From: Acetivibrio alkalicellulosi
GTDB taxonomy: Bacteria; Bacillota; Clostridia; Acetivibrionales; Acetivibrionaceae
Reading direction: 5' to 3'
Length of the DNA stretch: 64,000 nt
Assembly (NCBI GenBank): GCA_008125075.1
Contig: VLTH01000002.1
Span: 2,728,843-2,792,842 of the forward strand
Shown: in pieces, positions 2,758-60,042 of the stretch
How positions within the stretch are numbered: the stretch's first letter is position 1
Layout of the letters: every line of letters begins with the position of its first letter
Program-made: the position numbers and the translations under genes
The notes under the pieces: generated by a model
What the model saw: the letters and a program-made list of their open reading frames with translations, nothing else
The model's database searches: none
What the model was told of the DNA's origin: nothing

Positions 2758-2803
2758 ATTATTCCTCCCTTACTATCTTGACAAATCATATTAAGTAAAA
2801 GTA

Positions 2804-3484
2804 CTATTGTAATAACTCTTTGATATCATCCACATTATATTTCGATAAAAATTCTCTTGTATCTTTTTCTATGTCTATTACAAAATCACTCCAATAATTT
2901 TGCAATGCTATAGGCTTAAAATTTCTTTCAAAGTATTTGTCGAATTTTTCACGACTAAATTTTCCATCTTCTACCCAGTCAATATTTTTTTCTAAAGAGT
3001 TCATCCATAAATCATTTAACTCATTTAAATACTCTATTTTTTTTCTTAAATCATTATCAAGAACTAATAATATATCATCTCTTTCTTCTTCAGGTATCCT
3101 CCAACGACCATCAAGTACTGAAATGAAAAAATCTTCAATCATAATAATATTGTAATTACTAACTATATCATCTTCTATAATTTCATGTTTTCTTAAAATA
3201 TTAGCATATCTAGTGTACTGTGGCACAAAATTTATATTATTGTTCAAAAACAAAATTAATGTTTCAGCATCACCTTTTTTAATATAACCTTCTTCTAATA
3301 TAGTTCTATATATTTCTTTTTGACTTATAATTAGATTTGCTATTTCTCCTCCACCAAAAAAACTAAAATCATTTTTAGTAAATTCATCATACTTTTTAAC
3401 AGTTTGAAATTTATTATAATTTAGGTATCCAAGAATAAGAATAGTTATTATTAATATTACTTTTATTCTCTTTTTTGTAAACAA
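2804..3484 (-). CDS. Membrane-anchored protein, unknown, tandem paralogue
   Basis: A 226-residue protein with an N-terminal transmembrane segment (about residues 7-23) and an outward-facing, acidic, helical domain. TTG at 3482-3484 is the likely start, five bases after GGGGGTG. It shares the LDxxLRK...LW...SL core with the protein at 1918-2757, so the pair arose by tandem duplication. Both follow the giant secreted VWA/dockerin protein on the same strand, separated from it by a hairpin at 3560-3604. A partner, chaperone or protective role toward that protein is only a guess from position. Confidence 0.7.
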   Translation of the reverse strand: MFTKKRIKVILIITILILGYLNYNKFQTVKKYDEFTKNDFSFFGGGEIANLIISQKEIYRTILEEGYIKKGDAETLILFLNNNINFVPQYTRYANILRKHEIIEDDIVSNYNIIMIEDFFISVLDGRWRIPEEERDDILLVLDNDLRKKIEYLNELNDLWMNSLEKNIDWVEDGKFSREKFDKYFERNFKPIALQNYWSDFVIDIEKDTREFLSKYNVDDIKELLQ

Positions 3485-3559
3485 TCCAGCACCCCCATCA
3501 AATACTATACTATAATTTATTTTTGATACTTTGTAGTTCTTTTATATCAGATATTTTAA

Positions 3560-3604
3560 ATTATAGCATATCAAATATCTAATTAGAACTTGATATGCTA
3601 TAAT
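3560..3604 (-). terminator. Strong hairpin after the giant dockerin/VWA gene
   Basis: A 15-bp perfect stem (ATTATAGCATATCAA with TTGATATGCTATAAT) lies 9 nt past the stop of the 1544-aa gene. It is followed by an AT-rich tract rather than a pure T-run. Partial read-through into the two paralogues is possible. Confidence 0.6.
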
Positions 3605-3613
3605 CTTATTAAG

Positions 3614-6600: not shown

Positions 6601-8248
6601 CACCATTTATATTCATTATTCCCCCATCCATTATTACATTTGCCCTAACTTCCATCTTTCCATTTTGCATATCAATTAAAGGTCTTTGTGTGGATAATAC
6701 ATTTTTTCTTTGTTCATATACTCCTCTTAAACTTATTTCTCCACCTCTTAAGTATATATTTCCTGCATTTCTTATATTATTACCAGATAGTATTTTTCTG
6801 TTAAGATCAAACACAGTATTCTTTAAAACTTCTATATCACTGTTAATATTGTCAGTATTAGATGTAAGAGTTTTTTCTAGAAGGTAATCGTCAGGTACTC
6901 TATTAAAATTGTCTAATGCCTTTTGAAGTTTTTCTTCATCTGAATTTTTTATTATCTCCATAATATCTTTCATATCTATAATATAGTCGCCGTTTGTTTC
7001 TCCAATCCACATATTAAGTGGACTATTTTTAGATCCTATTTGAACACCTTTCATTCCTACTGGAATATTTATAAGCCTGCTCAAATACCCTTCCTTGCTT
7101 ATTTTAACAGTAACAACCTCATTTGAATCAGGAGTATATTTAAACTTAAAGTATCCTTCCTCATTTGTACTAACACTTTCAATAACATCTTTTTCATCGT
7201 TGTATACTTCTACATTAAATCCTTGTGGATTAGAAGTTTCAATGTATCCTTCAATAGTATGTTCTTGTATATCTTCAAGCTCTAATGATAGTGCCTGCAA
7301 CTCATCTTTATCAATTGGTGCTAATTCAAAGCTACTTGCTGAAACTGTACTAATACTTGTGCCTACCTTTTTTATTCCTTTTGTATCAATACACTCACCC
7401 TTTGAGTCAAAAAGCTGAACACCTTTTTTCTCAATATATGCATTGGCTCTCCAGTACTTATTGTCTTTATCATTTATAAATTCTATTTTGGTATCTTTAA
7501 GTTTCAAAACTTCAAATGATATTTTTGCAAGTTCTCCTGTTTTAACTATACTTTCATTATTAATGAATTGGTCAATGGATTTGACTACTCTTCCAAAGTT
7601 AATCCTTCCTTCTTCAAGGTCATGATATGCAGCAGATACATATTGGTGATTAGTGTCAGAAAGAACGTTTCCTATACTAGGAATTGTATCCTCTTCATAA
7701 GGATTTTTAGTTATGCAATCTACAGGTTGAAGGACTTTAGGATCGTATTTAATGTTTAACTGGTATCCTGCTAGATTTGATATTTCATTAATGTTTATTG
7801 AAGCAGTAATTATATCCCCCTTTTTTGTGGGATGGTTTTCTAAGGAAATGTTAATTTCTTTAGGACTTTCAACCTTAACTCTTGAGGCAGGAAACTCATC
7901 AATGATGTTAAGGATATACCTTCTCATTAGAATAACATCCGTACTGTTAATATTTCCATCACCATTTAAATCTGCCGCAATATGTCCATGACTCGTGGGA
8001 AATTCTGTTATAATGTTTAATATGTACCTTCTAAGTAGAATATAATCTGTACTATTAATACTACCGTCACCATTTATGTCACCTATAGTAATTTCCTTTT
8101 CCTCTTCAAAAGCATTTACTTGGTAATCATTTAAAATAAGATTTTCCTCTCTCTCAGTTGCACTGTAAATTGTAACGTTAGTTAGTAAAATAGTAAATGT
8201 AATCATGATGCAAATAATAGTACTTACTAGTTTTTTTGTTTTTTTCAT
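3614..8248 (-). CDS. Giant secreted multidomain protein: dockerin, cohesin-like, Fn3, VWA
   Basis: A 1544-residue secreted protein. Visible order: signal peptide (1-31); a type I dockerin pair (53-123; GDINGDGSINSTD and ADLNGDGNINSTD) directly after the signal; a cohesin-like beta domain (about 130-275); a CNA-B or carboxypeptidase-regulatory-like domain (about 328-400); a short acidic element NGDYIIDMKD (about 419-428); a repetitive beta-solenoid-like stretch (about 485-650); Fn3 (683-765); thrombospondin type 3-like calcium repeats (774-845); VWA (978-1160) with an intact MIDAS (DQSGS at 986, T1053, D1081); and about 380 C-terminal residues I cannot assign. It is probably an extracellular adhesion or cellulosome-associated protein. 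An N-terminal dockerin is unusual, since most are C-terminal. The start ATG lies after an AAAAGGGGAG-like site. Confidence 0.9.
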   Translation of the reverse strand: MKKTKKLVSTIICIMITFTILLTNVTIYSATEREENLILNDYQVNAFEEEKEITIGDINGDGSINSTDYILLRRYILNIITEFPTSHGHIAADLNGDGNINSTDVILMRRYILNIIDEFPASRVKVESPKEINISLENHPTKKGDIITASININEISNLAGYQLNIKYDPKVLQPVDCITKNPYEEDTIPSIGNVLSDTNHQYVSAAYHDLEEGRINFGRVVKSIDQFINNESIVKTGELAKISFEVLKLKDTKIEFINDKDNKYWRANAYIEKKGVQLFDSKGECIDTKGIKKVGTSISTVSASSFELAPIDKDELQALSLELEDIQEHTIEGYIETSNPQGFNVEVYNDEKDVIESVSTNEEGYFKFKYTPDSNEVVTVKISKEGYLSRLINIPVGMKGVQIGSKNSPLNMWIGETNGDYIIDMKDIMEIIKNSDEEKLQKALDNFNRVPDDYLLEKTLTSNTDNINSDIEVLKNTVFDLNRKILSGNNIRNAGNIYLRGGEISLRGVYEQRKNVLSTQRPLIDMQNGKMEVRANVIMDGGIMNINGGNLHVKGEYQLKNNAILKMTRINDHVIIEGSTFVYTQTSYDNCLTAGILELRGDFTVNGTPNNNIFEAYGSHKTVLAGERGQTINMENGHRPHMFNTLILLEPEDHYNFIPPNKEFWKQMLDYIPVIPTEPEAPHLTGVWHNNTVRLYWSKTNCADRYNVYRSSVDKGPYYLIEENRLRKDFIDVDVKEGNTYYYVVEAVNRFGTSPYSQQVKVNSGIVYDIESIDLDADYSGNGLTNREELKHGTNPFKWDTDEDGISDYDEIYVYGTHPLNPDTSGDGIYDGAAVMLGLNPLDYHEDVVSFKTALSRDERVEVTAWGNGNVIMSPLQVWDSDNILLNNLEGIVGKPVEITNGGFPIEYAEIRISYNREDLGDISEDELTIFYANPETQQLEEIDDVRVDKVNQVVIGITTHFSPFLLGPISMNRYLTSDIVFVIDQSGSMRTYDPNNIRINATKMFVERSFGAQRIGIVEFTDNGKVMKELTNEKETLLNKLNEMYISGGHTNITDGLRKAGGLFDENSNRQKVIVLLTDGESNREAGQEMNMARELAKQGIVINTIALGRDVDLDLMRAISKEANGNFFFIENQRGLSQEDVDRQTSQVYLRLLNMLSIISSRRTSSRNNTPAGVPHVNDDTALPDPWNIRLIDGEFWETKVEIRQWVNTELPKIESPIIKTEGKYDSYISEEINVDTATIFNNLLNKLGKNRRLTIGELGISDEMFEELFLVRDEYKNKYHPNSDEIMGGLEKKFYHEPTSNYGKYHNGYVFHILTQEIAFGRTVTHIIHGRYIMNAESRDEISMQLSVINNYQVIYDPTLRTVETIANRGLRFESIKMAIQLDTEKRNVFYESNLYGVFSNKKDSKNYELLIPVAKRIPYLKDVIETGEMIKDIVTDVWEFIKLFDTEGGRMSETIRDNQLGQSQSYGSKSYFMQEDDYESRGWDPVQIIWGNSKKFLSHGDGSDGGDRMKLKGGIGHADSPEDDYEAYFILDYSVNIIY

Positions 8249-22101: not shown

Positions 22102-22159
22102 GAAGCAAGGGGACGGTTCTTTTGCTTCCCTGGAAGCAAAAGAACCGTCCCCTTGCTTC
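22102..22159. repeat. F4 repeat, complete 58-bp perfect palindrome
   Basis: GAAGCAAGGGGACGGTTCTT continues to a 2-nt loop, then the exact reverse complement follows: two 28-nt arms. It touches the stop codon of the dockerin beta-helix gene. The stem would be very stable and could end transcription or protect the mRNA. Confidence 0.85.
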
Positions 22160-23829
22160 TATATTCCTAGTACGTGCCTTCTTAATAGTACATAATCAAT
22201 AGAATTTATTTTTCCATCTCTGTTCATATCGGCTGCCATCAACCCATTTTCGCAGGGAAATTCACTTATAATTTCTAAAAGATATCTTCTCAACAAGACG
22301 CAATCAGTAGAATTAACTAGATTATCACCATTTAAATCTCCATATAATATGCCTTTTGATAAATACCTTTCTCTTGCAGAATTTGTTCCATTTAACCTGT
22401 CCGAACCTGTTGAAGGCCAACTTAAGGCTCCATAAAATGAAGGCTTGGTTTTATGGTAATATGAATCAGGTATAGTTTGACTATCAATACTTTCATCCCA
22501 TATAACTGAGCCATTTATGTAATTTCCATGCATTAAAATTGTATCAGGATTTATCATATGAGGATAGCGACTGTCTGTATCCCACAATATATCCGATTTA
22601 ACCAGTTCATTCCCTACGAAGTTTTGATAATTTGATGAATCTTCTATTCTAATTCCTTCAGCTTCTATTCTATTGCGCAAAAAGGTATTACCCCTTCCAG
22701 CAGGTCCCCAATAATCTGCTACAGCTACTTTCTGAACTATATTTCCTTCAAAGAGATTTGCATAAGGATGGTGCCCATGCAATGAAATATCAGCAGGTAT
22801 CCAATTGCCTCCTCCACTTTGGTATGGCTCAATAGAATAATTATATCCAAAAACGTTGCCATTAGAACCAAGTTGAACCATCATGGAATGCCTTAAATGC
22901 TTAAAAATATTATTCTCTACAAGGCAATTTGTAGCATGAAAGCCAAGTTGGACACCATATCCATGTCCTCCGCCACCCCAATTAGTAGCGTCGTCAAAAA
23001 AACTATCCCTTATTTCAATACGGTATCCTGTATTTACATATACATGGCACTTTCTAGCCAACTTGCTATGAACATTTCTTATCCAACAGTTTGCAGCATT
23101 TTTAAAATAAAATATACTTGTATCACTTCTATCAATGCGTTCAACAGAAAAATCTTCAAATCCAACATATTCTGCAAATCCCTGAGTTCTTATTATAGGA
23201 TTTAAAGCTTTATTATAGTGGTGCCGTAAAGGTTCATCTATTTTTATAGTATTGCCCTCAACGGAAACTACTTTGGCAATTTGCCCCACTGCACCACTTG
23301 CCCATCCTACATTCCAAGTTGGCAAAGTATACATAACATCATGGTCATTGTCCTGTTGTATTTCAACATATTGACCGGTCCGAAAAGATGATGCGTCTTC
23401 AACTACAAGCTGTGTCGAACCCTTTGTATATCCATCGGTAAGGTTTGTCCATCTTCCTCTTTTATAGGTAATTATCTCAAAGGCATTTGAATTGTGATCG
23501 ATTAGAAGATGAGTTTTGTCTATGCCCTCACCCTTTAGAACAACAGGTTTATCAAAAGTTAATTTTGATTTAATGAAATATGTTCCTTTAGGAATAAGTA
23601 CTCCCCCATCAGTGGCTGATAAAATAGCAGATTTAAAGGCCTCATAATCATCTGTAATACCATCACCCTTAGCTCCAAAATCCACTACATTTATCCAATT
23701 ACTAACATCAGGTATTCCACCTTCTATTCCTGGATTCCATATGTATTGATCAATTGTACTCATACCGGTAGAAATGCTTCCTCCAATTAGTAAAAAACTA
23801 AGCAATAGAACAAAAAAACATTTTTTCAT
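22159..23829 (-). CDS. Secreted beta-helix polysaccharide lyase-like protein with dockerin
   Basis: A 556-residue secreted protein. It has a signal peptide (about 1-24), a right-handed parallel beta-helix of the pectate-lyase-3/glycosidase superfamily type beginning NVVDFGAKGDGITDDYEAF, and a C-terminal type I dockerin (last 60 residues; GDLNGDNLVNSTD and ADMNRDGKINSID, each followed by LLRR). The dockerin should plug it into a cellulosome scaffoldin. The substrate (pectin-like or other plant polysaccharide) is not determined by sequence. ATG at 23829 follows AAGGAGT with 7-nt spacing; an upstream in-frame start is not supported. An F4 palindrome sits at its stop. Confidence 0.85.
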   Translation of the reverse strand: MKKCFFVLLLSFLLIGGSISTGMSTIDQYIWNPGIEGGIPDVSNWINVVDFGAKGDGITDDYEAFKSAILSATDGGVLIPKGTYFIKSKLTFDKPVVLKGEGIDKTHLLIDHNSNAFEIITYKRGRWTNLTDGYTKGSTQLVVEDASSFRTGQYVEIQQDNDHDVMYTLPTWNVGWASGAVGQIAKVVSVEGNTIKIDEPLRHHYNKALNPIIRTQGFAEYVGFEDFSVERIDRSDTSIFYFKNAANCWIRNVHSKLARKCHVYVNTGYRIEIRDSFFDDATNWGGGGHGYGVQLGFHATNCLVENNIFKHLRHSMMVQLGSNGNVFGYNYSIEPYQSGGGNWIPADISLHGHHPYANLFEGNIVQKVAVADYWGPAGRGNTFLRNRIEAEGIRIEDSSNYQNFVGNELVKSDILWDTDSRYPHMINPDTILMHGNYINGSVIWDESIDSQTIPDSYYHKTKPSFYGALSWPSTGSDRLNGTNSARERYLSKGILYGDLNGDNLVNSTDCVLLRRYLLEIISEFPCENGLMAADMNRDGKINSIDYVLLRRHVLGI

Positions 23830-23895
23830 ATTAAGACTCCTTACGCACAAATCTTAATTATATTATATAACATTCTCTAAAAATCTGCAAAAGAG

Positions 23896-37767: not shown

Positions 37768-40413
37768 TTAAGTTAATTTAAACAGTTCTTCTACATCTAG
37801 TATCAAAGAAACTCTTCCGTCTCCTAAAATACTTGCTCCTGATGCAAATTTAAGATTATTAAATTCCTCATTAAGTGGCTTTGCTACAACTTCTTGCCTT
37901 CCTAATACCTCATCAACAGGAAAAGCCTTAAGATTTTGTTCAACTTCCAAAACCACTACCATATTTCTTTTTACTTCATCATTTTTAGTATCGAATATTT
38001 GATGGGACGGTATTAACCCTATTATTTCATCTCTGATCTTTATAAATTCTCTTTTACCTTTTACACTTATCCATTGGTTTTCCTCTGGCTTTAATAAGTG
38101 CTTAATATAAAGTGTTGGTATAATATATCTTATACCTGCTATATCAACTATTGTTCCATTTATAACAGCAAGATTTATTGGTATTTTAAGGGTAAACTCA
38201 CATCCCTGACCAGGTAAGTTTACTAAATCCACCCTTCCTCCAATTTTAGACATTTCTGTTTCAACTACATTCATTCCAACGCCTCTGCCAGATATATTAT
38301 TTGCCTTTTCCAATGTAGAAAAACCAGGTAAAAATATAAATCTGTTTATTTCTTCAGGAGAGTAGTCCATATCAGAACTTATAAGGTTCTTTTCCTTTGC
38401 TTTTTTATAGATTAAATCTGTATCAAGTCCTCTTCCGTTATCTTTAATTTCAATGTATACGCATCCTCTTTTACTGTATGCATTTATATTAACTCTTCCC
38501 TTTTCCTCCTTACCTTTCATTTTTCTCTCTTGGGCACTTTCCATCCCATGAGAAACTGAGTTTCTTACAATGTGCATTAATGGGTCAAAGAGTTTTTCTA
38601 CAATGCTTCTATCTACCTCTGTATCTTCTCCTGAAATGACTATATCAACTTCTTTTCCAAGCTCAACTGCTGCATCTCTTCCAATTCTAATTAATTTTTG
38701 AAGAGTTGGCCTTAAAGAAACCATTCTAAGTGACATGGATAGCCCTTGTATGTCTTTTATTGTTTTTGCCATGCGAGATAAATTATTCATAAAATTGCTA
38801 TGAAGACCCACTTCCTCTTTAGCATCTCTTTCTAATATGGAATAAAAAACAAGCATCTCGCCTAATAAATCTACAAGATTATCAATTTTTTTGACAGGTA
38901 TTCGCATAAATCCATTGTCAGCAGGTGTTAAACTTCCACTTTTTTTAGATAAAACATCCTGGCTCCTCAATGATTCAATTATATCAGATGGTTGTACTTT
39001 TTTTTCTTTTACTGCAACCTGACCTAATTTTAATCCTTTATAGTTTTCCTTTTGCTTTTTTAACAATTCTTCTAAATCTTCTTCCTTAATTTTGCCCTTT
39101 TCTACAAGAATTTCACCTAGCTTTTTTTCTTCAATTTCACCTTTATATTTCTTTTCATAATATTTTATGTGATTTTTATACTTTTTTATAAATTCATCTT
39201 CATTCACAATCTGTGGATCATTTGATGTTTTAAGTATCATAACCGAAGATTCAAGAATTAAATCTACCAATTCAGAGTCAATTTGCAATTCTTCCTTCAG
39301 ATATTTATCTAAAATATTTTCAGCTTGTAAGGAAATACTCATCATTTCACTATATCCAGCAAAATTAGAAAGTCCTTTAATAGTATGAAAAGCTCTAAAA
39401 AGAATATGCAGTATATCTAAACCTTCTTGTTCAATCAGTACAATATTTATATTTACTTTTTCAATTTGTTCAACTATGCTATCTCTTATGTCTTTATCAA
39501 ATTCTTTTTCAATTTCTATAAAGTTATCCTTACTATCACCTATTATATCATTAACAAGTAAATCTTCACTTGTTTCACATTGGCTTAATGCACATGTTCT
39601 GTCTTTTAAGCTAATAAGCTTAATAGCATTAACTTCTGACGACTGCTCATTTGTTGTATATGTCTCAATGCAAATTTTTTCAACTTCTTGTAGCACATCT
39701 AACTCTTTTAAAATCTCTTCCTTGCTATCCTTAGACACTATAATAGCTTCTATTTTTTGATTATCTAGCGTAAAATCTTCTTTTTTTGCTTCTTCCTCAT
39801 CTGGTCTTTCAGGTATAGAAGAAATAATTATCCCAACATTTTCTATTTCTCTAAAATTAATTAGTACTCTTACAGTTTTAAAGACACAGTCATCACTTAA
39901 ATTAATATCTAATTTATAAGCCTTAAATCCTTTAGAAATATATTCATTTAGACGATTAAATTCTTCATCTGTTATATTTATTTCATCAACCTTTTTATCT
40001 TTGTTAGCCTTTTTACTATTTGACTTTTCATGTCTTTCTTCTACAATTTTATGAAGTTTACCTAAGATACTCTCTGAATTAATTTCTTCTTCAGTACCTG
40101 TACGTACTATAGAATCAAGGCTGTTTTCAATAAAATCATGACAAATAAATAAAAGTTCTATAACCTTTTTATCTGCCTCTATTTTTCTAGCTCTTATGTC
40201 ATGAAGTATATCTTCCATGTCATGAGTTAATTTTTCCATCTTTATAAATCCCATGGCAGAAGATGAACCTTTAATGGTATGTGCAGCACGAAAAACAGCA
40301 TCAATAGAATCATTATGATATGGATTTTTCTCTAATACTAAAAGAGCAGTATCTAGTATTTCAAGGTGTTCTTTTGTCTCCTCTACGTATATCTGCATTA
40401 ATTCTTCATTCAT
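37768..40413 (-). CDS. cheA: CheA-type histidine kinase with two HPt domains
   Basis: An 881-residue CheA, longer than usual (about 650-700). Order: HPt 1 (AAHTIKGSSSAMG, His45); a middle region (about 145-250) that may act like P2; HPt 2 (FHTIKGLSNFAGY, His343); an MshEN/GspE-N-like helical segment (about 430-485, LGEILVEKGKIKEEDLEELL); P3 dimerisation; kinase with N-box DPLMHIVRNSVSHGME, DNGRGLD and SGRGVGMNVV; and C-terminal CheW-like P5. It is catalytically intact. ATG 40413 has GGAAGG upstream. It follows cheR by 21 nt. Confidence 0.93.
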   Translation of the reverse strand: MNEELMQIYVEETKEHLEILDTALLVLEKNPYHNDSIDAVFRAAHTIKGSSSAMGFIKMEKLTHDMEDILHDIRARKIEADKKVIELLFICHDFIENSLDSIVRTGTEEEINSESILGKLHKIVEERHEKSNSKKANKDKKVDEINITDEEFNRLNEYISKGFKAYKLDINLSDDCVFKTVRVLINFREIENVGIIISSIPERPDEEEAKKEDFTLDNQKIEAIIVSKDSKEEILKELDVLQEVEKICIETYTTNEQSSEVNAIKLISLKDRTCALSQCETSEDLLVNDIIGDSKDNFIEIEKEFDKDIRDSIVEQIEKVNINIVLIEQEGLDILHILFRAFHTIKGLSNFAGYSEMMSISLQAENILDKYLKEELQIDSELVDLILESSVMILKTSNDPQIVNEDEFIKKYKNHIKYYEKKYKGEIEEKKLGEILVEKGKIKEEDLEELLKKQKENYKGLKLGQVAVKEKKVQPSDIIESLRSQDVLSKKSGSLTPADNGFMRIPVKKIDNLVDLLGEMLVFYSILERDAKEEVGLHSNFMNNLSRMAKTIKDIQGLSMSLRMVSLRPTLQKLIRIGRDAAVELGKEVDIVISGEDTEVDRSIVEKLFDPLMHIVRNSVSHGMESAQERKMKGKEEKGRVNINAYSKRGCVYIEIKDNGRGLDTDLIYKKAKEKNLISSDMDYSPEEINRFIFLPGFSTLEKANNISGRGVGMNVVETEMSKIGGRVDLVNLPGQGCEFTLKIPINLAVINGTIVDIAGIRYIIPTLYIKHLLKPEENQWISVKGKREFIKIRDEIIGLIPSHQIFDTKNDEVKRNMVVVLEVEQNLKAFPVDEVLGRQEVVAKPLNEEFNNLKFASGASILGDGRVSLILDVEELFKLT

Positions 40414-40434: not shown

Positions 40435-41241
40435 CTATTTCATATATATGGTAGGTTTTAAATACTGGAATTTATGTTTTTTCCCTGTAAGGCTCTCGGA
40501 GTGACCTATAAAAAGAAGCCCTCCTGGTACAAGTACATCATAAAATTTATCTATAAGCTTTTGCTGAACTTTTGAATCAAAATATATCATTACATTCCTG
40601 CAAAAAATCATGTCAAAAGATTTTTTGAACGGAAAATCGTCCATTAAATTAAACAACCTAAATGTCACAAGTCTTCTTAAATTTTCATTCACTTTCCATT
40701 CTGATCCCTGTTTTTTAAAATATTTTAACAGGTAATACTTATCTATATTGTTTTTTATTGCAGGTGAATAAACACCAGTTACTGCTTCTTTCAAAACTCT
40801 TGTGCTAAGATCAGTTGCTAGTATTTTAATATAAGTCCCCTGTAAAAAATGCTCTTGTAATATGACACCTAATGTGTAAGGTTCTTCTCCTGTAGAACAC
40901 CCTGCACTCCAAACTCTTATTTCATTGTTTCTTATAATTCTCTTATTATTATCAACAATAAAGTTCACATTGTTTTTTATATATTCAAAATGATTGTTTT
41001 CTCGAAAAAAATCAGTCTTATTAACGGTAATTTCACTAGAAAACTCTAACAACGTCTCTTTGTCTCTAACTTGAGTAAGGAGCCTGAAATACTCCTCATA
41101 AGACTCTATTCTATTTTTTACAATTAGCTTTAGAATCTTTGATTGAAGCATGTCTTTTTTATCCTGACTAATATGTATTCCAAACTTATCATATATAAAG
41201 CTTACGTATTTCAGGAACATCCCGTCACTCAAGTATCTCAT
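40435..41241 (-). CDS. cheR: CheR chemoreceptor methyltransferase
   Basis: A 268-residue SAM-dependent methyltransferase that methylates glutamates of chemoreceptors. It has an N-terminal helical domain, TDFFREN, the SAM motif VWSAGCSTGEEPYTL, and FDMIFCRNVMIYFD. ATG with AAGGAGAG upstream, 15 nt after the MCP gene. With cheB and cheD it forms the adaptation branch of this system. Confidence 0.95.
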   Translation of the reverse strand: MRYLSDGMFLKYVSFIYDKFGIHISQDKKDMLQSKILKLIVKNRIESYEEYFRLLTQVRDKETLLEFSSEITVNKTDFFRENNHFEYIKNNVNFIVDNNKRIIRNNEIRVWSAGCSTGEEPYTLGVILQEHFLQGTYIKILATDLSTRVLKEAVTGVYSPAIKNNIDKYYLLKYFKKQGSEWKVNENLRRLVTFRLFNLMDDFPFKKSFDMIFCRNVMIYFDSKVQQKLIDKFYDVLVPGGLLFIGHSESLTGKKHKFQYLKPTIYMK

Positions 41242-41256
41242 AATGGTAATCTCTCC

Positions 41257-43245
41257 TTAAAAGTCATCTTTGTCTTCATCTAAAGGTATAACATCATTAG
41301 GATTTACGATCTGGGTTTTAGAATTTCCAGTTGACTTATAATTGTGTGCCATAGAAGTTTTTTTTGTGTTTTTTCCCTCAATCATTTTTTTAGGACCAGT
41401 GCTAGCAATTCTTCTAGTTGTATTATTTAACATTGCATTATTTCCTTCAACAAGATGTAGTAACTGGCTTACCATATCTTTAAGATTTTCAGCCTGAGCA
41501 CTTAGCTCTTCTGAAGAAGAAGCACTTTCTTCAGCAGTAGCCGCATTCTCTTGAGTTGCTTTTTCCATTTGGGCTATAGCCTTGTTAATTTGTGCAATAC
41601 CCTGGGATTGTTCTTGACTTGCTGCTGCAATTTCATCCATTAGTTCATTTACCTTTTTGGATTGTAGAGTTATTTCTGACAATGATTCTCCAACTTTTTT
41701 GGCCACTTCAACACCTTTTTGGGACATGCCAATGTTGTTTTCAATTATTGAAGCAGTATCTTTAGCAGCTTGTGCACTTCTTTGAGCTAGATTTCTAACT
41801 TCTTCTGCTACAACTGCAAATCCCATTCCCGCATCACCTGCTCTTGCTGCCTCTACAGCTGCATTTAATGCTAAAATATTTGTCTGAAAAGCAATTTCAT
41901 CAATAACCTTTATTATTTTAGCTATCTGATCACTGGATTTTTTTATCTCATCCATAGAGCTCATCATTTCACTCATTTCTCTATTGCCCTTATCTGAAGC
42001 TTCTTTTGCCTTTTGTGACAACATTGCTGCTTGCTTTGTATTCTCAGTGTTTTGCTGTACCATAGAAGCTGATTGTTCTAAGGTGGAAGATGTCTCCTGA
42101 ATTGAAGATGCCTGCTCCGAATTTGCCTCAGCAAGCTGCTGACTTGAAGTTGAAAGTTGCTCTGACGCTGCTGTCACCTGCTCTGCACCCTGAGATAATC
42201 CATCTACAATGCGGTTTATAGGCTTTGTAATACTGGATATTATAACAAAGCTTAATAAAATACCCGCTATCAAAGCAATAATTAGTCCTACTATTACAAT
42301 AGTTGTCGATGCAGCAAGGTTTGTAGCACTTTCTTGAGACCTATTTTCTACGTGAGCTATTCCTGCGTCCATATTTTGACCTGAAATCCTTACAGCCTCA
42401 AGTCCTGTCTCAGTTCTTGCCCTATTTATTCTGTCCACTTCAGTCCAGTTACTTTGAAGCATTAGCATGCCATTTTTGTATTCATCTACTGCATTTCTTA
42501 TTTCAGTCATTTGCCTTTGGTTTGCAGAATTTCTTATGGTTGGATCTAATTCATTTAATATTGCAGTTATATTATCAAAGTTTCTTAAACCCTCATTAAT
42601 CAATCTTTCATCATGATTTAACTGAAATCTTTCATTTGCAATTCTAATATCATTTCCTATGTCAACTACATCATTCATTCTGTATATTTTCCACACTCTT
42701 TCATTTAGTGCAGCATTACTTGCATCTGATGAAATCTCACTTCTCATTGCCGATTCCATATTGTCTAAAAATTCTGATGTAGTCATAATAAATCTTTGGG
42801 CAGCTTCATCTAAATCCCTTCTTATTACTTCTATTTCATCATTTACCCTTACAGTATCATTCATCAACGATTCATACTGTAATACAGATCTTTCAATTGC
42901 CTGAATATTATCACCAAAAACCACTAAATGCGTTGCAGTTGCTGCTAGTTTTTTTCCCTCTTCAATGTGATTTTTTACACTACTCAAGTGTACTAATGCA
43001 CTATCATAAAAACTTCTTTGTTCTGTAAAAGCATATCCTCTCATTTCATACATAAGCATTAAAATACTTTGTTCTATTTCTGCTGATATTGCTACTTCTG
43101 GAACATATTCTTCAGCTAGTATTGTTGACTGTATTCTTGTATTTGTCATATTAATTGAAGCTATTACTCCAATAACAAGCATAATTACAATAACCAGTCC
43201 AAATCCAGCTGCTATTTTAAAGCTGAGTCGTAAATTTTTAAACAT
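41257..43245 (-). CDS. Methyl-accepting chemotaxis protein
   Basis: A 662-residue receptor: TM1 (about 10-30), a roughly 280-residue extracytoplasmic helical sensor, TM2 (about 313-336), a short HAMP-like linker, then a long coiled coil with the conserved tip [20 protein letters not shown] and [20 protein letters not shown]. The C-terminus ([15 protein letters not shown]) has no CheR-docking pentapeptide. ATG overlaps the cheW end by 8 nt behind GGAGGCG. This is the cluster's only complete receptor. Confidence 0.93.
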
Positions 43246-43726
43246 TTAACATCGCCTCCTGTTTTTCATTTAATACTACAAGGTCTTCACTTCCAAGTAC
43301 TTTTTCAATTTCTAAAAGGAGTACTACTTTGTCCTTTATTTTACCTATTCCAGTAAGAAACCCTTCTTCTACACGTGAATCATACTGGGGTGGTGGTTCA
43401 ATTTCACCCTTTTGAATGTTTACTACCTCTGATACAGTGTCAACTATTATGCCCATTAATCTAGAACTACCAGAAAAATACACTTCAACTACTATAATGC
43501 ATGTCCTCTGGTTGTATTCCATTTCGTTAAGTCCAAATTTAAGCCTTAAATCCAATACAGGTATTATCTTTCCTCTTAAGTTAATTACACCCCTTATAAA
43601 CTCAGGCGTTTTAGGAATGGCTGTTATATCCATTATTCCTATTATTTCCTTAACCTTGTGAATAGATATGCCATATTCCTCGTCTTCTAATAAGAAAGAT
43701 AAAAATTTTCCACCTTCTTGCTCCAT
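43238..43726 (-). CDS. cheW: CheW coupling protein
   Basis: A 162-residue CheW-like adaptor that links receptors to Che[41 protein letters not shown] and [13 protein letters not shown]. Start ATG overlaps the cheA stop (TAATG), indicating translational coupling. Confidence 0.94.
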
Positions 43727-45444
43727 TAAGCTTCACCCTCCATTCTAAATATAGATTCAACATCTACAATAAAAGATACTCTGCCGTCTTCTAAGATTGA
43801 TGCTCCCATAACAAAAGCGGGGTTACAATACACATTATCAAGATTTTTAACTGCAAGCTTTCTTCTCTCATCAACCTTTTCCACCGCAAGTGCCCTTCTT
43901 TCCCTTCTTATTTGCAAAAGCAAAACACATAGATCACCATCCTCATTCTCAGTGTAATTATCTATTCCAAAAATCTTTTTTCGTGGAAGTAATTGCACTA
44001 TTTCATCTTTAACCCTTACCATTTTTTTCTTGCCTCTTTCTTTTATCCAGGAGTACTCGCCTTTTTGTAGTATTTTCTTTAAGTAAGTTGTAGGAATTAT
44101 AAATTTTTCTTTACCAATTTTTACAATAACACCATCTAGTACAGCTAGGTTTAGAGGAGTTTTTATAATAAATGTGCATCCTTTTTTTGGGTAGTTAATG
44201 ACTTCTACTTTTCCACCTATTTTAGCTATTTCAGTTTTTACAACATCAAGCCCTACACCTCTCCCTGAAATGCTGTTTACATTTTCAGAAGTTGAAAAGC
44301 CAGGCATAAATATAAAGTCTAATATTTCTTCTTCACTATAGTGAATATTAGGATTGGCTAGTTTTTTGTCAATTGCTTTTTTAAGTACCCTATCTAAATT
44401 TATACCCCCTCCATCGTCAGATATTTCTAAGTAAACGCTTTCACTTTTAGTGTATGCCTCTATACTTACAACTCCACATTCATCTTTCCCATTTGCTATT
44501 CTCTCTTCTTTTGGCTCGATTCCATGAGATATACAATTTTTCACTATATGCATAAGAGGATCTGTAATTTTTTCAGCAAGATCCCTTTCCATTTCAGTAT
44601 TTTCACCTAAAATCTTTAATTGTACATCCTTACCTAATTCTTTTATGGTTTCATTTACAACTTTTTTTATTTTTTGAAAATTAGACTTTAAAGGTACCAT
44701 TCCAAGTGACATAATAAGGTTTTGAACTTCCATAGTGGCATTTGTCATCTCTACAAATTTCTTTGCAAATAAATCATTTGATTGGACTCTTTCTGTTATT
44801 TCTGCTTCAAGCAAGGATTGGGTAATTATTATTTCACCCATTACTTCAGACAAAAAATCTATATCTTCAGGCATTACCCTGATATATTCAAGTGTTTTTG
44901 AAGTTTCTTTTTTAACTTGGTCTCTATTTTCTTCATTGTTCATGTGAATTTTTCTTATTTGGTTACTGCTAAAATTTAAGTCCTTCTCATTAATTATTTC
45001 AACTTCTGGCTTATTATCTTTATTTTTTTTGCTTTTTTCTATATTATTTACTTTAAAATCTATATCATTAAGAAAAATGTCCAACTTTTTAATGAATATT
45101 TGGTTTTCTTTTATCTCTTTATCATTACATACAGACGTTATACTATCACATGCAGATAAAATCAAGTCTTCATATTCTTTATAAGATAAGACTTCACTAT
45201 ATCTTAAAACCTCAATTAGTGTTTCTACTTTATCAGATATTTTTAATATAAACTTTTCATCTATAAATCCTGCAAGCCCTTTTATGCTGTGAAAGGCTCT
45301 AAATAGACCATCTATTAAATCTTCTTTGTCCTTTTCCTTATCTAAAATAAGACATTTTCCTTCAGCATCTCTAATGTGTTCTAATATTTCAACAATCACT
45401 TCTTCATGTATTCGTTGGAGTTCAGTTTTGTTTTTGCCACTCAT
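43726..45444 (-). CDS. cheA: CheA-type histidine kinase (compact)
   Basis: A 572-residue CheA with HPt (RAFHSIKGLAGF, His52), no obvious P2, P3 dimerisation (PEDIDFLSEVMGEIIITQSL), an intact ATPase (DPLMHIVKNCISHGIE, DDGGGINLDRV, SGRGVGLDVV) and a CheW-like C-terminus. It is shorter than typical CheA because the CheY-binding P2 is missing or reduced. The phosphoryl target is probably CheB and/or the receiver at 47100-47501. Confidence 0.93.
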   Translation of the reverse strand: MSGKNKTELQRIHEEVIVEILEHIRDAEGKCLILDKEKDKEDLIDGLFRAFHSIKGLAGFIDEKFILKISDKVETLIEVLRYSEVLSYKEYEDLILSACDSITSVCNDKEIKENQIFIKKLDIFLNDIDFKVNNIEKSKKNKDNKPEVEIINEKDLNFSSNQIRKIHMNNEENRDQVKKETSKTLEYIRVMPEDIDFLSEVMGEIIITQSLLEAEITERVQSNDLFAKKFVEMTNATMEVQNLIMSLGMVPLKSNFQKIKKVVNETIKELGKDVQLKILGENTEMERDLAEKITDPLMHIVKNCISHGIEPKEERIANGKDECGVVSIEAYTKSESVYLEISDDGGGINLDRVLKKAIDKKLANPNIHYSEEEILDFIFMPGFSTSENVNSISGRGVGLDVVKTEIAKIGGKVEVINYPKKGCTFIIKTPLNLAVLDGVIVKIGKEKFIIPTTYLKKILQKGEYSWIKERGKKKMVRVKDEIVQLLPRKKIFGIDNYTENEDGDLCVLLLQIRRERRALAVEKVDERRKLAVKNLDNVYCNPAFVMGASILEDGRVSFIVDVESIFRMEGEA

Positions 45445-45517: not shown

Positions 45518-47027
<1,510 letters not shown>

Positions 47028-47099: not shown

Positions 47100-47501
47100 T
47101 TAATTGTCTTCTACAAATCCTAAATCTTTCATCATTTCTAATACCCTGGTTCTTTCTATTGGTTTTGGCAAATAGGCTTCGCATTGCTCTAAAAATGCTT
47201 GCTTAATATTGTCTACATCTCTTAATGCAGTAACCATAACAATCTTAACAGTGTCTAATCCTTTTATTCCGGCCTTCTTTTCATATTCCCTTATTTCTTT
47301 TAGTAACTGCTGACCGTCCATTTCAGGCATCATTATATCTACTAAAACCAGATCATAAGGTACGTTTTCTTGAAAAGCTTCTCTGAATTCTTCTAAAGCT
47401 TCAACACCATTTACAGCAGTATGACATCTTCCAAATTGATTCATCATTTTTTTTAGAAGTCTTCTACTTGCATAATCATCTTCAGCTATTAAAATTCTCA
47501 T
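47100..47501 (-). CDS. CheY-like single-domain response regulator
   Basis: A 133-residue receiver only: RILIAEDDYASRRLL (acidic pocket), phosphorylated Asp in DLVLVDIMMPEMDG, Thr in MVTALRD and Lys in YLPKPIERTRV. It has no output domain. ATG 47501 follows GGAGGAG. It lies 14 nt after the degenerate CheA and is the likely CheY of the system, or its phosphate sink. Confidence 0.93.
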   Translation of the reverse strand: MRILIAEDDYASRRLLKKMMNQFGRCHTAVNGVEALEEFREAFQENVPYDLVLVDIMMPEMDGQQLLKEIREYEKKAGIKGLDTVKIVMVTALRDVDNIKQAFLEQCEAYLPKPIERTRVLEMMKDLGFVEDN

Positions 47502-47515
47502 TATTTTCTCCTCCA

Positions 47516-49336
47516 TCACATAATATTACCAATATCTAAAACGGGGGCTATTTTCCCGTTTTCAACAATAGATACTTTTGAAGCAAACTCAAGATTTTCA
47601 AAACCTTCACCAAGGGGCTTTACTGCAAACTCTTTTTTTTCTAAAACATTATCTACCATAAGCGCTCTTTTTTTACCTTCATAATCCAAAATCACAGATA
47701 AGGATACATCTTTTAATAAAATATTTCCAAAAATATTCTCTAATAAAAGTATTTCAATAACCTCATCTTTAATTCTTAAAGCTTTCATTATTCCTCCTGA
47801 TTTAATAATTTGATTCTTATCTATTTTTTGTATTTTACTTATATATCCTGAAGGAATAATAAACTTAGACTTTTCTATTTCTACAATTATACCGTCCACT
47901 ACAAAAGCATCATCAGGAATTCTAATTATCATGCGACTTGTGTTACCATTATTTTGAATGTGCTCAATTTTACCTCCAAAATCGTTTGCATATTGAGATA
48001 AATCTTTTGTTTTTGTTTTAATAGGATCATTCTCAAGATAATCATAATTTAATTCAAGTTGAACAGTTTCATAATTTCTTATTATTTTTATGTCTATGTT
48101 TTTTTTGTCTTTTTTGCTATTTAGACCTAGAACTATATATTCAAGAGTGTTATTTAATACAATCCTTATTTTTTCTATTTTAGATCTGTCAATTAGGGTT
48201 TCTTCGCCTTCAATTGTTATATTAATTTCTTTACCTTCTTTATATGCATTGCTTTTTGTTTTTTTTATAGCTTCTCTTGTTATTTCTTTAAAGGATGTCT
48301 TTTTTAATCTGGTTCCTAGATTTTGCATGTTTCTCACGTGTTTTCCATATTTTAATAGATATGCTTTTATTTTATCACCAGACATAAATCTTTTGTCTGC
48401 CTGTTCAATTAGAGATGACTGCAAAACAAAAACATCACTAAGAGCTGACATTAGTTTTTCAAGTCTTTCAAATGGTATCCTCATAGATTTACCGATATCT
48501 TGATCAATAACTTTATCTTCAACTCTAGTAGTATCTTCTGTTTTAAATGTTTTTACTTTTTCTTCTATCTTGTTGCATTGTTCTATTATTTCTACACAAT
48601 TTTCTTTTTTTCTCTCATCAATAATTTCTCGTGATAATTGACATGAGTAAAGCAATAAATCCATAGTATCTTTTTCAACTAATCCATTTGTCTTGATTAT
48701 TCTGTCAATAAGCTTCTCCGAACTACTTGCAATAGTCTTTATACTTTGATTATTAATAAAACCTGAATAGCTTCTTAATATGTGAAGATCGTTAAATATA
48801 TCTAAAATACACTCGCTACTACCTCTTTGATTTTGAATTGACATAATTTCAGATTCAATTTTCATTATTTGACTTTTTATTTCATTCATAAAATAAAGAT
48901 TCATATCTTGATCAACTGCAAAGGGTTGTATGTCTTTATAGTTATTATGTGTATCTTTTAACACACAGTTTAGCCTTAATATTATTTTATCAAGATTAGA
49001 TGATAAATTAACATCTTCTTTTCCATTATCCCTTATATAGTCAAAAGATTTTTTCAAAAAGTCGCGACATACAAATAACAATTCTGTTATATCTTTGCTT
49101 ATTTTGATTTTATCATCTCTAATCTCCTGAAGTATATTTTCCATATTATGAGTGAGTTCTGCCATTTTTGAATAACCCATTGAAGCTGATGACCCTTTCA
49201 TAGAATGAGCAATCCTGAAAAGACTGTTTATCACGTCTTTATTATCAGAACTATCCTCTATAGTTTCAAGGAATTTCAACATAGATTCCATCTGTTCTTT
49301 TGTCTCTTCAATAAATATAGAAAATAATTGGTCCAT
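47516..49336 (-). CDS. CheA-like protein with degenerate ATPase domain
   Basis: A 606-residue CheA homologue. HPt 1 is intact (RIAHSMKGSSASMG, His44). A second HPt-like bundle keeps a histidine (NDLHILRSYSGF). P3 (RIPFERLEKLMSALSDVFVL) and the CheW-like C-terminus are recognisable. In the kinase domain, however, the N-box is replaced by KIRIVLNNTLEYIVLGL, and both the DxGxG and the SGRGVG boxes are missing. It should not bind or hydrolyse ATP but could still accept phosphate on its HPt from another CheA, acting as a scaffold or phosphorelay. ATG 49336 follows GAGGTG. Confidence 0.85.
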   Translation of the reverse strand: MDQLFSIFIEETKEQMESMLKFLETIEDSSDNKDVINSLFRIAHSMKGSSASMGYSKMAELTHNMENILQEIRDDKIKISKDITELLFVCRDFLKKSFDYIRDNGKEDVNLSSNLDKIILRLNCVLKDTHNNYKDIQPFAVDQDMNLYFMNEIKSQIMKIESEIMSIQNQRGSSECILDIFNDLHILRSYSGFINNQSIKTIASSSEKLIDRIIKTNGLVEKDTMDLLLYSCQLSREIIDERKKENCVEIIEQCNKIEEKVKTFKTEDTTRVEDKVIDQDIGKSMRIPFERLEKLMSALSDVFVLQSSLIEQADKRFMSGDKIKAYLLKYGKHVRNMQNLGTRLKKTSFKEITREAIKKTKSNAYKEGKEINITIEGEETLIDRSKIEKIRIVLNNTLEYIVLGLNSKKDKKNIDIKIIRNYETVQLELNYDYLENDPIKTKTKDLSQYANDFGGKIEHIQNNGNTSRMIIRIPDDAFVVDGIIVEIEKSKFIIPSGYISKIQKIDKNQIIKSGGIMKALRIKDEVIEILLLENIFGNILLKDVSLSVILDYEGKKRALMVDNVLEKKEFAVKPLGEGFENLEFASKVSIVENGKIAPVLDIGNIM

Positions 49337-49393: not shown

Positions 49394-49858
49394 CTATTCT
49401 TCAAATGAGATATTAAGCTCCATTTTTTCTTCTTCATTAAATATAAACGGAATTGTTATAACAGACATTTTATCGAAAGAAATTTCCATTTTTTCTCCTA
49501 ACAGAACAGTTGGAGGACCTATGTCTAAAGTTAAACCATGCTTAGATAAAGAAATTCCGCAATTACCTATAGTCATATTTGCCAATTCAGCAAGAGCACT
49601 CTTTGCCATGTCATCTAAATCGTTAACCTCAAAACCTCCCATCATAGCCGAAACTATTTTGCAGGCAAATTCTTTGCTTAGTGTAAAAACAGCATGACCT
49701 CTTATAGAACCTACAAGAGCAATCATAACAGCAACATTGTCACTATAGTATGGTTTGTCTCTTTTGTAGGATTCTTTAGAAGATACACTAAAATTAGTTA
49801 TTTGACTTAAAAGACTAACACCAACTTCTGCTATCGTTTCAATGTACTCCTTTTTCAT
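49394..49858 (-). CDS. cheX: CheX-type CheY-P phosphatase
   Basis: A 154-residue protein with the CheX/CheC phosphatase signature E..N within SALAELANMTIGN, after VGSIRGHAVFTLSKE. CheX dephosphorylates CheY-like receivers to reset signalling. It has one catalytic motif, as in CheX rather than the doubled CheC. The ATG is at 49858, first in the cheX/CheA-like/cheY run. Confidence 0.88.
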   Translation of the reverse strand: MKKEYIETIAEVGVSLLSQITNFSVSSKESYKRDKPYYSDNVAVMIALVGSIRGHAVFTLSKEFACKIVSAMMGGFEVNDLDDMAKSALAELANMTIGNCGISLSKHGLTLDIGPPTVLLGEKMEISFDKMSVITIPFIFNEEEKMELNISFEE

Positions 49859-55018: not shown

Positions 55019-55414
55019 TTAAGTGGACTTAGGGTCTTTTTCAAATATATTTAAAACTTTATTTGATAATTCCTTTGGATCTATAGGTTTTTTTAAATAA
55101 GCATCAACACCTAATCCTATTGCATATTTAACATTCTTTAAATCTGCATATTGGGTTAAAACCAATATAGATATATCATTATATCTACTTGTATTCTTTA
55201 GTTTTGTTATTAAATCAAATCCATTTTCTTTATTGAGGTTAAGGTCCATAATTATTAAGTCTGCCTTTTTACCATACTCTTCTATAGAGTTAAACATCCC
55301 AAATTCGCTTCCTGCTTGTCTTACAGTCATGCCTAACTTCTCGAGTATTACTTTAACCTCTTTTCTTATAGACGGGGAATCATCAACTATTAGTGCAACT
55401 TTTCCATCAATCAT
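55019..55414 (-). CDS. Single-domain response regulator
   Basis: A 131-residue receiver: ALIVDDSPSIRKEVK, Asp in LIIMDLNLNKENG, Thr in ILVLTQYAD and Lys in YLKKPIDPKEL. No output domain. ATG follows GAGGTGAAAAA. It lies between a free HPt protein and the 7TM hybrid kinase, so it is a candidate end point or intermediate of that relay. Confidence 0.9.
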   Translation of the reverse strand: MIDGKVALIVDDSPSIRKEVKVILEKLGMTVRQAGSEFGMFNSIEEYGKKADLIIMDLNLNKENGFDLITKLKNTSRYNDISILVLTQYADLKNVKYAIGLGVDAYLKKPIDPKELSNKVLNIFEKDPKST

Positions 55415-55468: not shown

Positions 55469-55822
55469 CTATATATCTACAAAGTAATCCTTTATTTCTT
55501 TACAAACAACTTGTATACATTCTAGCAGTTCATTGATTTGGATATTTGACCTATCAGTTATTTTATTTTTAAACTTTAGGTCTAAATTTTTCGCAATTTC
55601 ATATAATTCATTTGCTTTATAACTTCCTGATATTCCCTTTATATTATGAATTATCTTACCAGCACAAGTATAGTCATTTTGTAAAAGACAACTTTTGAGA
55701 TTTTCTCTTTCTTGTAAAATTTCTTCTAAAAAAGTTTCATACAAATCTCTCATAGTTTCATTGTCAACATCAACATCTTTTACAAATGAATCAAAATCAA
55801 TTACTTGTTTAGATTGAGACAC
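55469..55822 (-). CDS. Free-standing HPt phosphotransfer protein
   Basis: A 117-residue four-helix HPt with the phosphorylated histidine in IIHNIKGISGSY (about residue 59). GTG start nine bases after AAAGGAG. Together with the receiver (55019) and the 7TM hybrid kinase lacking HPt (51734) it forms a plausible His-Asp-His-Asp relay. Confidence 0.88.
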   Translation of the reverse strand: MSQSKQVIDFDSFVKDVDVDNETMRDLYETFLEEILQERENLKSCLLQNDYTCAGKIIHNIKGISGSYKANELYEIAKNLDLKFKNKITDRSNIQINELLECIQVVCKEIKDYFVDI

Positions 55823-57696: not shown

Positions 57697-60042
57697 ATGA
57701 ATTCAAAAACCAAACGAAAAATTCGAAATCGACGAAATAATGTTAATTCTATCATATTTATAGTCATTCTTCTCGTTGGAGCTATTTATTTTATCAAACA
57801 TCCTATAATACGAATTATTATTGCTCTTATTATTGTTTCTAAAGCTTTAATTTTACTTATTTCTTTCTTAAGTCAAGTTAAGAAACATAAAAGAATCAAT
57901 TCAAAAAATGACAAAAAAATTAAAACTTCAAAAGATTTATATTCACTAAAAGAGCCTTATTATGATGACAACAAAAATACTAGCATTAAAATGCAAAATA
58001 ACAAAAATATTGATTTCATTATAGATAAAGATCAAAACAGTGTTAATAATACTAATGAGATTGGCATTAAGAACAATAGTAGTACTAATGAAGATGACAA
58101 AGAATTAAGAAAAAGAGTGGTTAATTGGACTAACAATGTAAATTATTCCGATTCAGTTTTTAAAAAAATTATTGAAAATAGCAAGAAAAATGAAGCAAAC
58201 AATATTGATGAAAAAAATACAGCAATAGAAAACAATGAAAAAGAACTTATTCTTTCAGATGAAGTTCAGGATGAAAACCAAGTTGAACTTCCGCCTATAG
58301 ATTTTTCACATGAAGTTCAAGATGAAAACCAAGTTGAACTTCCACCTATAGATTTTTCACATGAAGTTCAAGATGAAAACCAAGTTGAACTTCCACCTAT
58401 AGATTTTTCACACGAAGTTCAAGTTGAAAACCAAGTTGAACTTCCACCTATAGATTTTTCACATGAAGTTCAGGATGAAAACCAAGTTGAACTTCCACCT
58501 ATAGATTTTTCACATGAAGTTCAGGATGAAAACCAAGTTGAACTTCCACCTATAGATTTTTCACATGAAGTTCAAGATGAAAGCCAAGTTGAACTACCTG
58601 TAAAATCATTTGATGAGAACAAGTTTGAAGTCCCACCAATAGATTTTTTAGATAAATATCAAAATAACGATATATTGAGTTCTAACTCAGAAAATGGTGC
58701 TAAGAAACTTATAGATACACTAGAGAGTTTTGGAGTAAAAGCTAAAATAATAAATATCAGTGTAGGGCCTTCTGTTACAAGATATGAGGTTCAGCCTGAT
58801 TATGGAGTAAAAGTAAGTAAAATTGTGAGCCTTACAGATGATATTGCATTAAATCTTGCTGCAACAGGTGTTAGAATAGAAGCTCCAATACCTGGAAAAG
58901 CAGCTGTTGGAATTGAAATCCCCAATTCTAAGGTTACACCTGTATTGCTAAGAGAAGTATTAGATAGTAATGAGTTTCAAAAACATCCATCCAAACTTGC
59001 TTTTGCTGTAGGTAAGGACATTACAGGTAATTGTGTTATAGCCGATATTGCTATGATGCCCCATCTCCTAATAGCTGGTGCTACTGGTTCGGGGAAAAGT
59101 GTATGCATAAACACACTAATAACAAGCCTTTTATATAAAGCATCACCTGATGAAGTAAAGCTATTGATGGTTGATCCTAAAGTTGTTGAACTTGGAATAT
59201 ATAATGGTATTCCCCATCTTTTGATTCCAGTAGTTACTGATCCTAAAAAGGCAGCTGGAGCATTAAATTGGGCAGTTCAAGAAATGATAAGTCGATATAA
59301 GCTTTTTGCAGATAATAATGTAAGAGACTTAAAAGGATATAACCGTATAATGGTGAACTCTGGGGAAAATCCTCTTCCTCAAATAGTAATAATTATTGAC
59401 GAGTTGGCTGATCTTATGATGGTAGCCCCTAATGATGTGGAAGACTGCATATGCAGGCTAGCTCAAATGGCAAGAGCTGCTGGAATGCATTTAGTAATAG
59501 CAACTCAGAGGCCTTCTGTAAATGTAATAACAGGTGTAATAAAAGCTAATATTCCTTCAAGAATATCATTTGCCGTTTCATCTCAGGTAGACTCTAGGAC
59601 AATATTAGATATGGGAGGAGCTGAAAAGCTTCTAGGTAAAGGAGATATGCTCTTTAGTCCTCTTGGTAAGCCAAAGCCAATAAGAGTTCAGGGCGCTTTA
59701 ATAACAGATAGCGAGGTAGAGGAAATTGTTTCATTTATTAAGTCAGAAACCCCCATGTACGACGAAAAAATCATTGACAAAATAGATAGTCAATTGGAGT
59801 TATCTAAGTCAAATACAGAGGATCAAGATGAATTATTACCTCAAGTAATTAATATGGTTATTGATTCAGGACAAGCTTCAACCTCATTGATTCAGAGGAA
59901 ATTTAAAATAGGTTATTCAAGAGCGGCAAGAATATTAGATACATTAGAAGCCGAAGGCATTGTGGGTCCTTTTGAAGGAAGCAAACCTAGAAGAGTATTA
60001 ATTACAAGGCAAGATTGTCAGGAATATGATGATAAAATATAA
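57697..60042 (+). CDS. FtsK/SpoIIIE DNA translocase with tandem-repeat linker
   Basis: A 781-residue ATPase that pumps DNA at division or sporulation septa. Two N-terminal TM helices (about 20-65) instead of the usual four; a long low-complexity acidic linker with six full and one partial 17-residue repeats (about 189-301); alpha/beta motor with [16 protein letters not shown] (Walker A), [10 protein letters not shown] (Walker B) and [12 protein letters not shown]; and a C-terminal gamma winged helix ([20 protein letters not shown]) for DNA-sequence recognition. ATG 57697 is 12 nt after AAGGTGG. A four-codon frame (MSEL) overlaps the start. Confidence 0.92.
58261..58599 (+). repeat. 51-bp tandem repeat inside the translocase gene
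   Basis: Six 51-bp units from 58261 to 58566 plus a 33-bp partial unit. Each encodes [17 protein letters not shown], with one D-to-V and one N-to-S change. Near-identity at DNA level suggests recent expansion or homogenisation. Confidence 0.92.

Follow-up and report, generated by a model that had tools for sequence, protein, structure and literature searches.

A CheA-family pseudokinase predicted to keep its phospho-acceptor domain in a chemotaxis operon of Acetivibrio alkalicellulosi

The chemotaxis operon of Acetivibrio alkalicellulosi encodes, beside two CheAs with intact ATPase boxes (CheA1 and CheA2), a third CheA-family protein in which the ATP site of P4 is lost and the phospho-acceptor domain P1 is retained. 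We lean, with some caution, towards the reading that this protein is a conserved CheA-family pseudokinase subunit, whose His44 would be phosphorylated in trans by a co-encoded CheA with output to CheY/CheB. As regards membership of the family, P1/Hpt with its histidine, P3 and P5/CheW were found in both orthologues known to us, and HATPase_c with its N, G1, F and G2 boxes was absent from both.

The gene, its operon and the lost ATP site

The window, that is the whole stretch of 64,000 nucleotides that was analysed, carries the pseudokinase gene at 47516..49336, on the minus strand like the other che genes of its operon. The open reading frame starts with ATG at 49336, preceded by the ribosome-binding site GAGGTGAG, and stops with TGA at 47518-47516; the limits set by an initial annotation made from the letters of the DNA proved exact, ATG to TGA over 606 codons. 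Together with Pfam and an orthologue from Herbivorax sp. ANBcel31, this reading frame defines a 606-aa protein with the domain order P1-P1'-P3-degenerate P4-P5. Directly upstream lies a gene for a CheX phosphatase homologue (49394..49858), and the CheY gene (47100..47501), which has a GGAGG of its own, begins 14 nt beyond the stop of the pseudokinase; the placement behind CheX and before CheY is borne out by the Pfam identities of the neighbours. The same-strand order continues with CheD (46539..47027), CheB (45518..46561), CheA2 (43726..45444), CheW (43238..43726), an MCP chemoreceptor (41257..43245), CheR (40435..41241) and CheA1 (37768..40413), the identities being confirmed by Pfam. CheA2 (572 aa) has the architecture P1'-P3-P4-P5, with intact ATPase boxes and no canonical P1 or P2; CheA1 (881 aa) is P1-P2-P1'-linker domain-P3-P4-P5, with all boxes intact. 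In a promoter and terminator scan of the region, signals were no better than in shuffles.

Several other genes of the window were recorded. Upstream of the che genes are a stand-alone Hpt protein (55469-55822) and a single-domain response regulator (55019-55414), both also present in ANBcel31 (L032), and a hybrid kinase and a histidine kinase lie between these two and the che genes. An FtsK/SpoIIIE-like DNA translocase (57697-60042) carries an N-terminal run of near-identical 17-residue repeats. A large secreted protein in which one stretch is von Willebrand A-like (3614-8248) and a pectate-lyase-like protein (22159-23850) both contain dockerin-like repeats, which is consistent with a cellulosome producer. 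The genome measures 5.3 Mb and is congeneric with Herbivorax sp. ANBcel31.

The degenerate P4 (residues 347-476; 47909..48298, minus strand) was delimited by alignment, Pfam, AlphaFold and Foldseek; it has no N, G1, F or G2 box and its ATP lid is deleted. Above the Pfam cut-offs, the pseudokinase matched solely Hpt (residues 3-85, 58 bits) and CheW (residues 482-605, 38 bits), and neither HATPase_c nor H-kinase_dim was found in it by Pfam even at E<1. HATPase_c was present in every intact comparison kinase scanned, and the two sister CheAs of the cluster match it at 56 and 52 bits with their boxes intact in the alignment, as the initial annotation had stated of them. When the whole genome was searched in six frames for HATPase_c, no match fell inside the pseudokinase gene; this result and the identical loss in an independent genome exclude a frameshifted ATPase or an assembly error. 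In a regular-expression scan of 71 CheA ORFs from the comparison loci, only the pseudokinase and its orthologue were without any of the N, G1 and G2 motifs, a few others, some of them fragments at locus ends, missing one or two motifs.

Alignment to the sister CheAs located the changes. The P4 start GEETLIDRSKIEK is retained, the N-box region reads TLEYIVLGLN where the sister CheAs have NxxSHGxE, nothing is left of the G1 box DDGxG, and a gap of 42 columns takes out the lid, the F box and GRGVG (G2). The N-box and both glycine boxes had been described at first as replaced by other residues; this holds for the N-box and G1, whereas G2 is deleted, along with the lid and the F box. Counted from the conserved K of beta1, P4 ends after 108 residues, compared with 161 in CheA2, which makes this P4 about 53 residues shorter. 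When the protein was compared with active CheAs by hhalign, homology extended over P3 and the first P4 strands (residues 285-392, E 3e-11) and ended exactly at the N-box.

The structure prediction of the kinase domain proposed with the initial annotation returned a truncated CheA-P4 fold. In the AlphaFold model (pLDDT 77), the P4 remnant forms a reduced alpha/beta sandwich; its top Foldseek matches were CheA P4 structures, at a query TM of 0.64-0.70 over alignments that exceeded the model by about 40 columns. A model of the whole protein (pLDDT 73) comprises P1, P1', P3, the P4 remnant and P5, and among PDB entries CheAs match it best. By sequence criteria the pseudokinase is thus predicted not to bind ATP, and the models suggest that the GHKL scaffold of P4 is probably kept.

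Retained domains and selection in two species

The other domains of the protein persist. P1 (residues 1-128; 48953..49336, minus strand), supported by the Pfam Hpt match and by matches to solved CheA P1 domains, carries the predicted phospho-accepting His44 in the motif FRIAHSMKGSS (codon 49205..49207, minus strand; alignment to CheA P1 domains). H44, K47, H63 and E66, which we take to be the P1 active-site quartet by analogy with the P1 domains of T. maritima and E. coli, are intact in the pseudokinases of both species. A second Hpt, P1' (residues 142-262; 48551..48913, minus strand), was identified by alignment and is helical in the model; it retains a histidine (His185), as had been noticed at the outset, and is otherwise degenerate, with K replaced by R, G by S and the second His lost. 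The P3 dimerisation domain (residues 284-346; 48299..48487, minus strand) was missed by Pfam, and is supported by hhalign to active CheA P3 and by two long helices in the model (289-316 and 322-344). The CheW-like P5 (residues 477-606; 47519..47908, minus strand) rests on the Pfam CheW match and on Foldseek (4jpb, target TM 0.83). The persistence of HPt, P3 and CheW-like domains given in the initial annotation was therefore confirmed by Pfam for the first and last and by hhalign for P3.

Herbivorax sp. ANBcel31, which degrades cellulose and was isolated from Siberian soda lakes (PMC11700989), is the only named record in which an orthologue was found; the protein is 57% identical and the whole cluster is syntenic. 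Clostridium (Herbivorax) alkalicellulosi likewise comes from a soda lake. Conservation of the boxes in orthologues had been named as the test for a recent decay, and in the alignment the ANBcel31 copy lacks every ATPase box, the same ones as the window copy, which indicates that the loss is not a recent event. The dN/dS of the pseudokinase between the two species was about 0.23 (Nei-Gojobori), a rough value since dS, at about 1.3, is near saturation; neighbouring genes gave 0.05-0.20. Recent decay was ruled out by the loss common to the two species, by dN/dS and by the segment-wise conservation described below.

Conservation was compared along the protein from two sequences, the window copy and that of ANBcel31. 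Identity reached 73% in P1 (86% in the His44 helix), 70% in P3, 84% in the P3-P4 hinge, 76% in the GEETLIDRSKIEK region and 77% in the C-half of P5. It fell to 35% in the N-box helix, 39% in beta3-beta4 and 32% in the lid remnant, and was 45% in P1' and 44% in the N-half of P5. The remnants of the ATP site are relaxed, and the acceptor, the dimerisation domain and part of the docking domain are constrained. CheA2 presents the mirror image, with 82% identity between species in P4 and 44% in P1'.

Origin and distribution

In trees built on P3-P5, the two pseudokinases formed one clade (100/100) and grouped with CheA1-type kinases, separated from ordinary CheAs used as outgroup with 100/100 support. 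The stem branch of the pseudokinases is very long, about 5 changes per site, and their place inside the CheA1-type clade could not be pinpointed, the trees settling no sister group. A comparable cluster in another genome of the same order (G047) encodes a single CheA1-type kinase of 903 aa. This kinase and CheA1 of the window resemble the pseudokinase in their homologous P1, P1', P3 and P5, and differ from it in having P2, the linker domain and the ATP site. Most likely, the pseudokinase descends from a kinase of the CheA1 type (P1-P2-P1'-P3-P4-P5) that lost P2 and whose ATP site collapsed.

Orthologues of the pseudokinase were found in 2 genomes when 58 order-level and 391 class-level genomes (overlapping sets) were searched, the class and phylum searches scoring the best three candidates per genome. 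Among the genomes searched, CheA2 orthologues occurred in the same 2. In a sample of the phylum, one genome from another class (G760) showed two kinases built like CheA2 (567 and 600 aa), both with the P1' quartet intact; a pseudokinase was not found there. The two kinases belong to separate che clusters (L084, L085), and in each cluster the short CheA (P1'-P3-P4-P5) is accompanied by a CheX/CheC-like pair and a small response regulator.

The searches also met with other unusual CheA-like loci. A CheA1-type protein of another family in the same order (L096 1249-2835; G040:C1:6313500-6318500) has the architecture P1-P2-P1'-linker-P3 and ends after P3, without P4 or P5. Hpt proteins of about 490 aa near other CheAs were considered as further pseudokinases; the one inspected, in L091, is a different, Hpt-plus-P2-like protein. 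Besides its N-terminal Hpt, this protein (2168-3652 of that locus) has a stretch that resembles P2, and neither a kinase nor a CheW domain is evident in it; similar matches occur in G020, G024, G042 and G040. A few kb away is a CheA of about 750 aa with two Hpts, and the chemosensory cluster also contains PP2C-like, HEAT-repeat-like and response-regulator genes; this is possibly another partitioned system. At G535:C47:29191-31286, a 206-aa frame matching Hpt precedes one of 596 aa that matches P3 and P5, which suggests a bipartite CheA whose Hpt is encoded separately.

Proposed role and comparison with known systems

Intact P1 together with relaxed ATP-site remnants is the pattern predicted for a protein that receives phosphate in trans. 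In the receptor array, the pseudokinase would associate with an active CheA of the same operon, either in a mixed dimer through P3 or as a neighbour through P5; the active CheA would phosphorylate His44 in trans, and P1~P would then hand its phosphoryl group to CheY, whose gene begins 14 nt downstream, and/or to CheB. The weak conservation of the P5 N-half was counted against such a trans-phosphorylated array subunit.

As to the donor, CheA2 is somewhat favoured on its sequence features and CheA1 is possible. CheA2 is preferred because it has no canonical P1 or P2, shows the mirror-image conservation and co-occurs with the pseudokinase. On the other side, the pseudokinase P1 is, orthologue aside, closest to CheA1-type P1 domains (42-48% identity, vs 17-20% to the P1' of CheA2), which would favour CheA1. 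The argument that CheA2 cannot work alone, and that the system must therefore be split, is weakened by G760, whose kinases of the same architecture with intact P1' and no pseudokinase suggest that CheA2 may be self-sufficient. Moreover, CheA1 is a complete kinase in the same operon, so that a split is not needed for function.

Conservation of P3 and of the P5 C-half is also compatible with docking at the array. The pseudokinase could then be a structural or inhibitory subunit that, through P3 and P5, enters mixed dimers or occupies places of CheA in the array and so tunes the gain of CheA1/CheA2, its P1 serving mainly for domain contacts or passive competition. The conserved P3-P4 hinge and a P4 that keeps its predicted fold without ATP residues fit such a subunit, and non-catalytic regulatory pseudokinases are known among histidine kinases, DivL being an example in the available part of one source (PMC4211667). 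We nevertheless consider it unlikely, given that P1 is the best-conserved domain with all four catalytic residues present, residues that a structural subunit would not need, as the degenerate P1' illustrates. The gene order CheX-pseudokinase-CheY would suit a phosphate buffer or sink. P1 would then acquire its phosphate mainly in the reverse direction, from CheY~P or the stand-alone Hpt, and make the CheY-P signal shorter or smoother; for chemotaxis in R. sphaeroides, reverse phosphotransfer has been the subject of modelling, according to the portion of that study available (PMC2924250). This role appears quite improbable, since CheX already serves dephosphorylation in the cluster and the conservation of P3 and of the P3-P4 hinge would be left unexplained. 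That the gene is a functionless CheA duplicate heading for loss is hardly credible: it evolves faster than its sisters (overall two-species identity 57%, vs 72% for CheA1 and 66% for CheA2) and has the long stem of about 5 changes per site, but its frame is intact in two species at this identity with dN/dS about 0.23, relaxation is confined mainly to the ATP site, P1' and linkers, its operon position is kept, and L096, a relative ending after P3, shows another, more drastic outcome.

Returning to phosphorylation of the pseudokinase in trans, a narrower proposal can be made, which we put forward tentatively and with rather more doubt than confidence: the operon may encode a second, independently evolved split or mixed CheA, with the pseudokinase as acceptor and CheA2/CheA1 as ATPase, whose mixed dimers would set the CheY signal. 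If a kinase-dead CheA is truly conserved in Bacillota, the partition of acceptor and kinase between paralogues would have evolved more than once, and its operon, with two intact CheAs, would lend itself to testing whether chemosensory output is tuned by mixed CheA dimers. A survey of 13,673 CheAs (2023) reported HATPase_c in every CheA of its set (PMC10782961); if our reading is true, annotation that requires HATPase_c for CheA overlooks such proteins.

The closest known system is that of R. sphaeroides, beyond which (that is, outside Rhodobacter) our search of the literature on CheA heterodimers and CheA pseudokinases found nothing relevant. In its CheA3, P1 and CheW flank a degenerate middle that includes a HATPase_c without a helix and ATP residues (PMC10782961). 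CheA3 is paired with CheA4 (P3-P4-P5); this was called 'a unique case', and 20 further genomes of Rhodobacteraceae have orthologues (PMC10782961, Berry et al. 2023), and CheA4 phosphorylates P1 of the kinase-dead CheA3 (PMC6829392). By sequence and fold prediction, our protein shares with CheA3 the make-up of a kinase-dead CheA with intact P1 and P5 and a degenerate P4. Like CheA3, it has an intact P1 at the N-terminus, a CheW domain at the C-terminus and a degenerate P3/P4 between them, with P4 helices missing and no full set of ATP residues; it also has an extra degenerate Hpt, and is encoded beside a CheA without canonical P1. By analogy, the operon would function in the manner of the CheA3/CheA4 split kinase.

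The two systems also differ. The long middle region of CheA3 (794 aa), with its CheY-P phosphatase activity, has no counterpart identified in the pseudokinase, whose 606 aa are accounted for as Hpt, Hpt', P3, P4, P5 and short linkers. CheA4 is devoid of P1, whereas CheA2 retains a weak P1'-type Hpt (Pfam 18.6 bits in the window, with Asp in place of the second Hpt His; 31.1 bits and complete in ANBcel31). The third, complete CheA1 in the operon sets it apart from the CheA3/CheA4 split, and the host is of the Bacillota rather than the Rhodobacteraceae. Its origin is probably independent of that of Rhodobacteraceae CheA3, with which it was compared by description, as judged from the phylum and from the grouping with Bacillota CheA1-type kinases.

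Two further comparisons are more distant. To our knowledge, DivL is not a CheA and has no Hpt, no CheW domain and no role in chemotaxis. The likeness lies in a histidine-kinase fold without kinase activity that is kept for signalling, as described for DivL in the available part of its source (PMC4211667). Bipartite CheAs with a separate Hpt gene likewise place phospho-acceptor and kinase on different polypeptides (PMC10782961); unlike them, the acceptor described here still has P3, what remains of P4, and P5, and Hpt domains are retained in the kinases as well.
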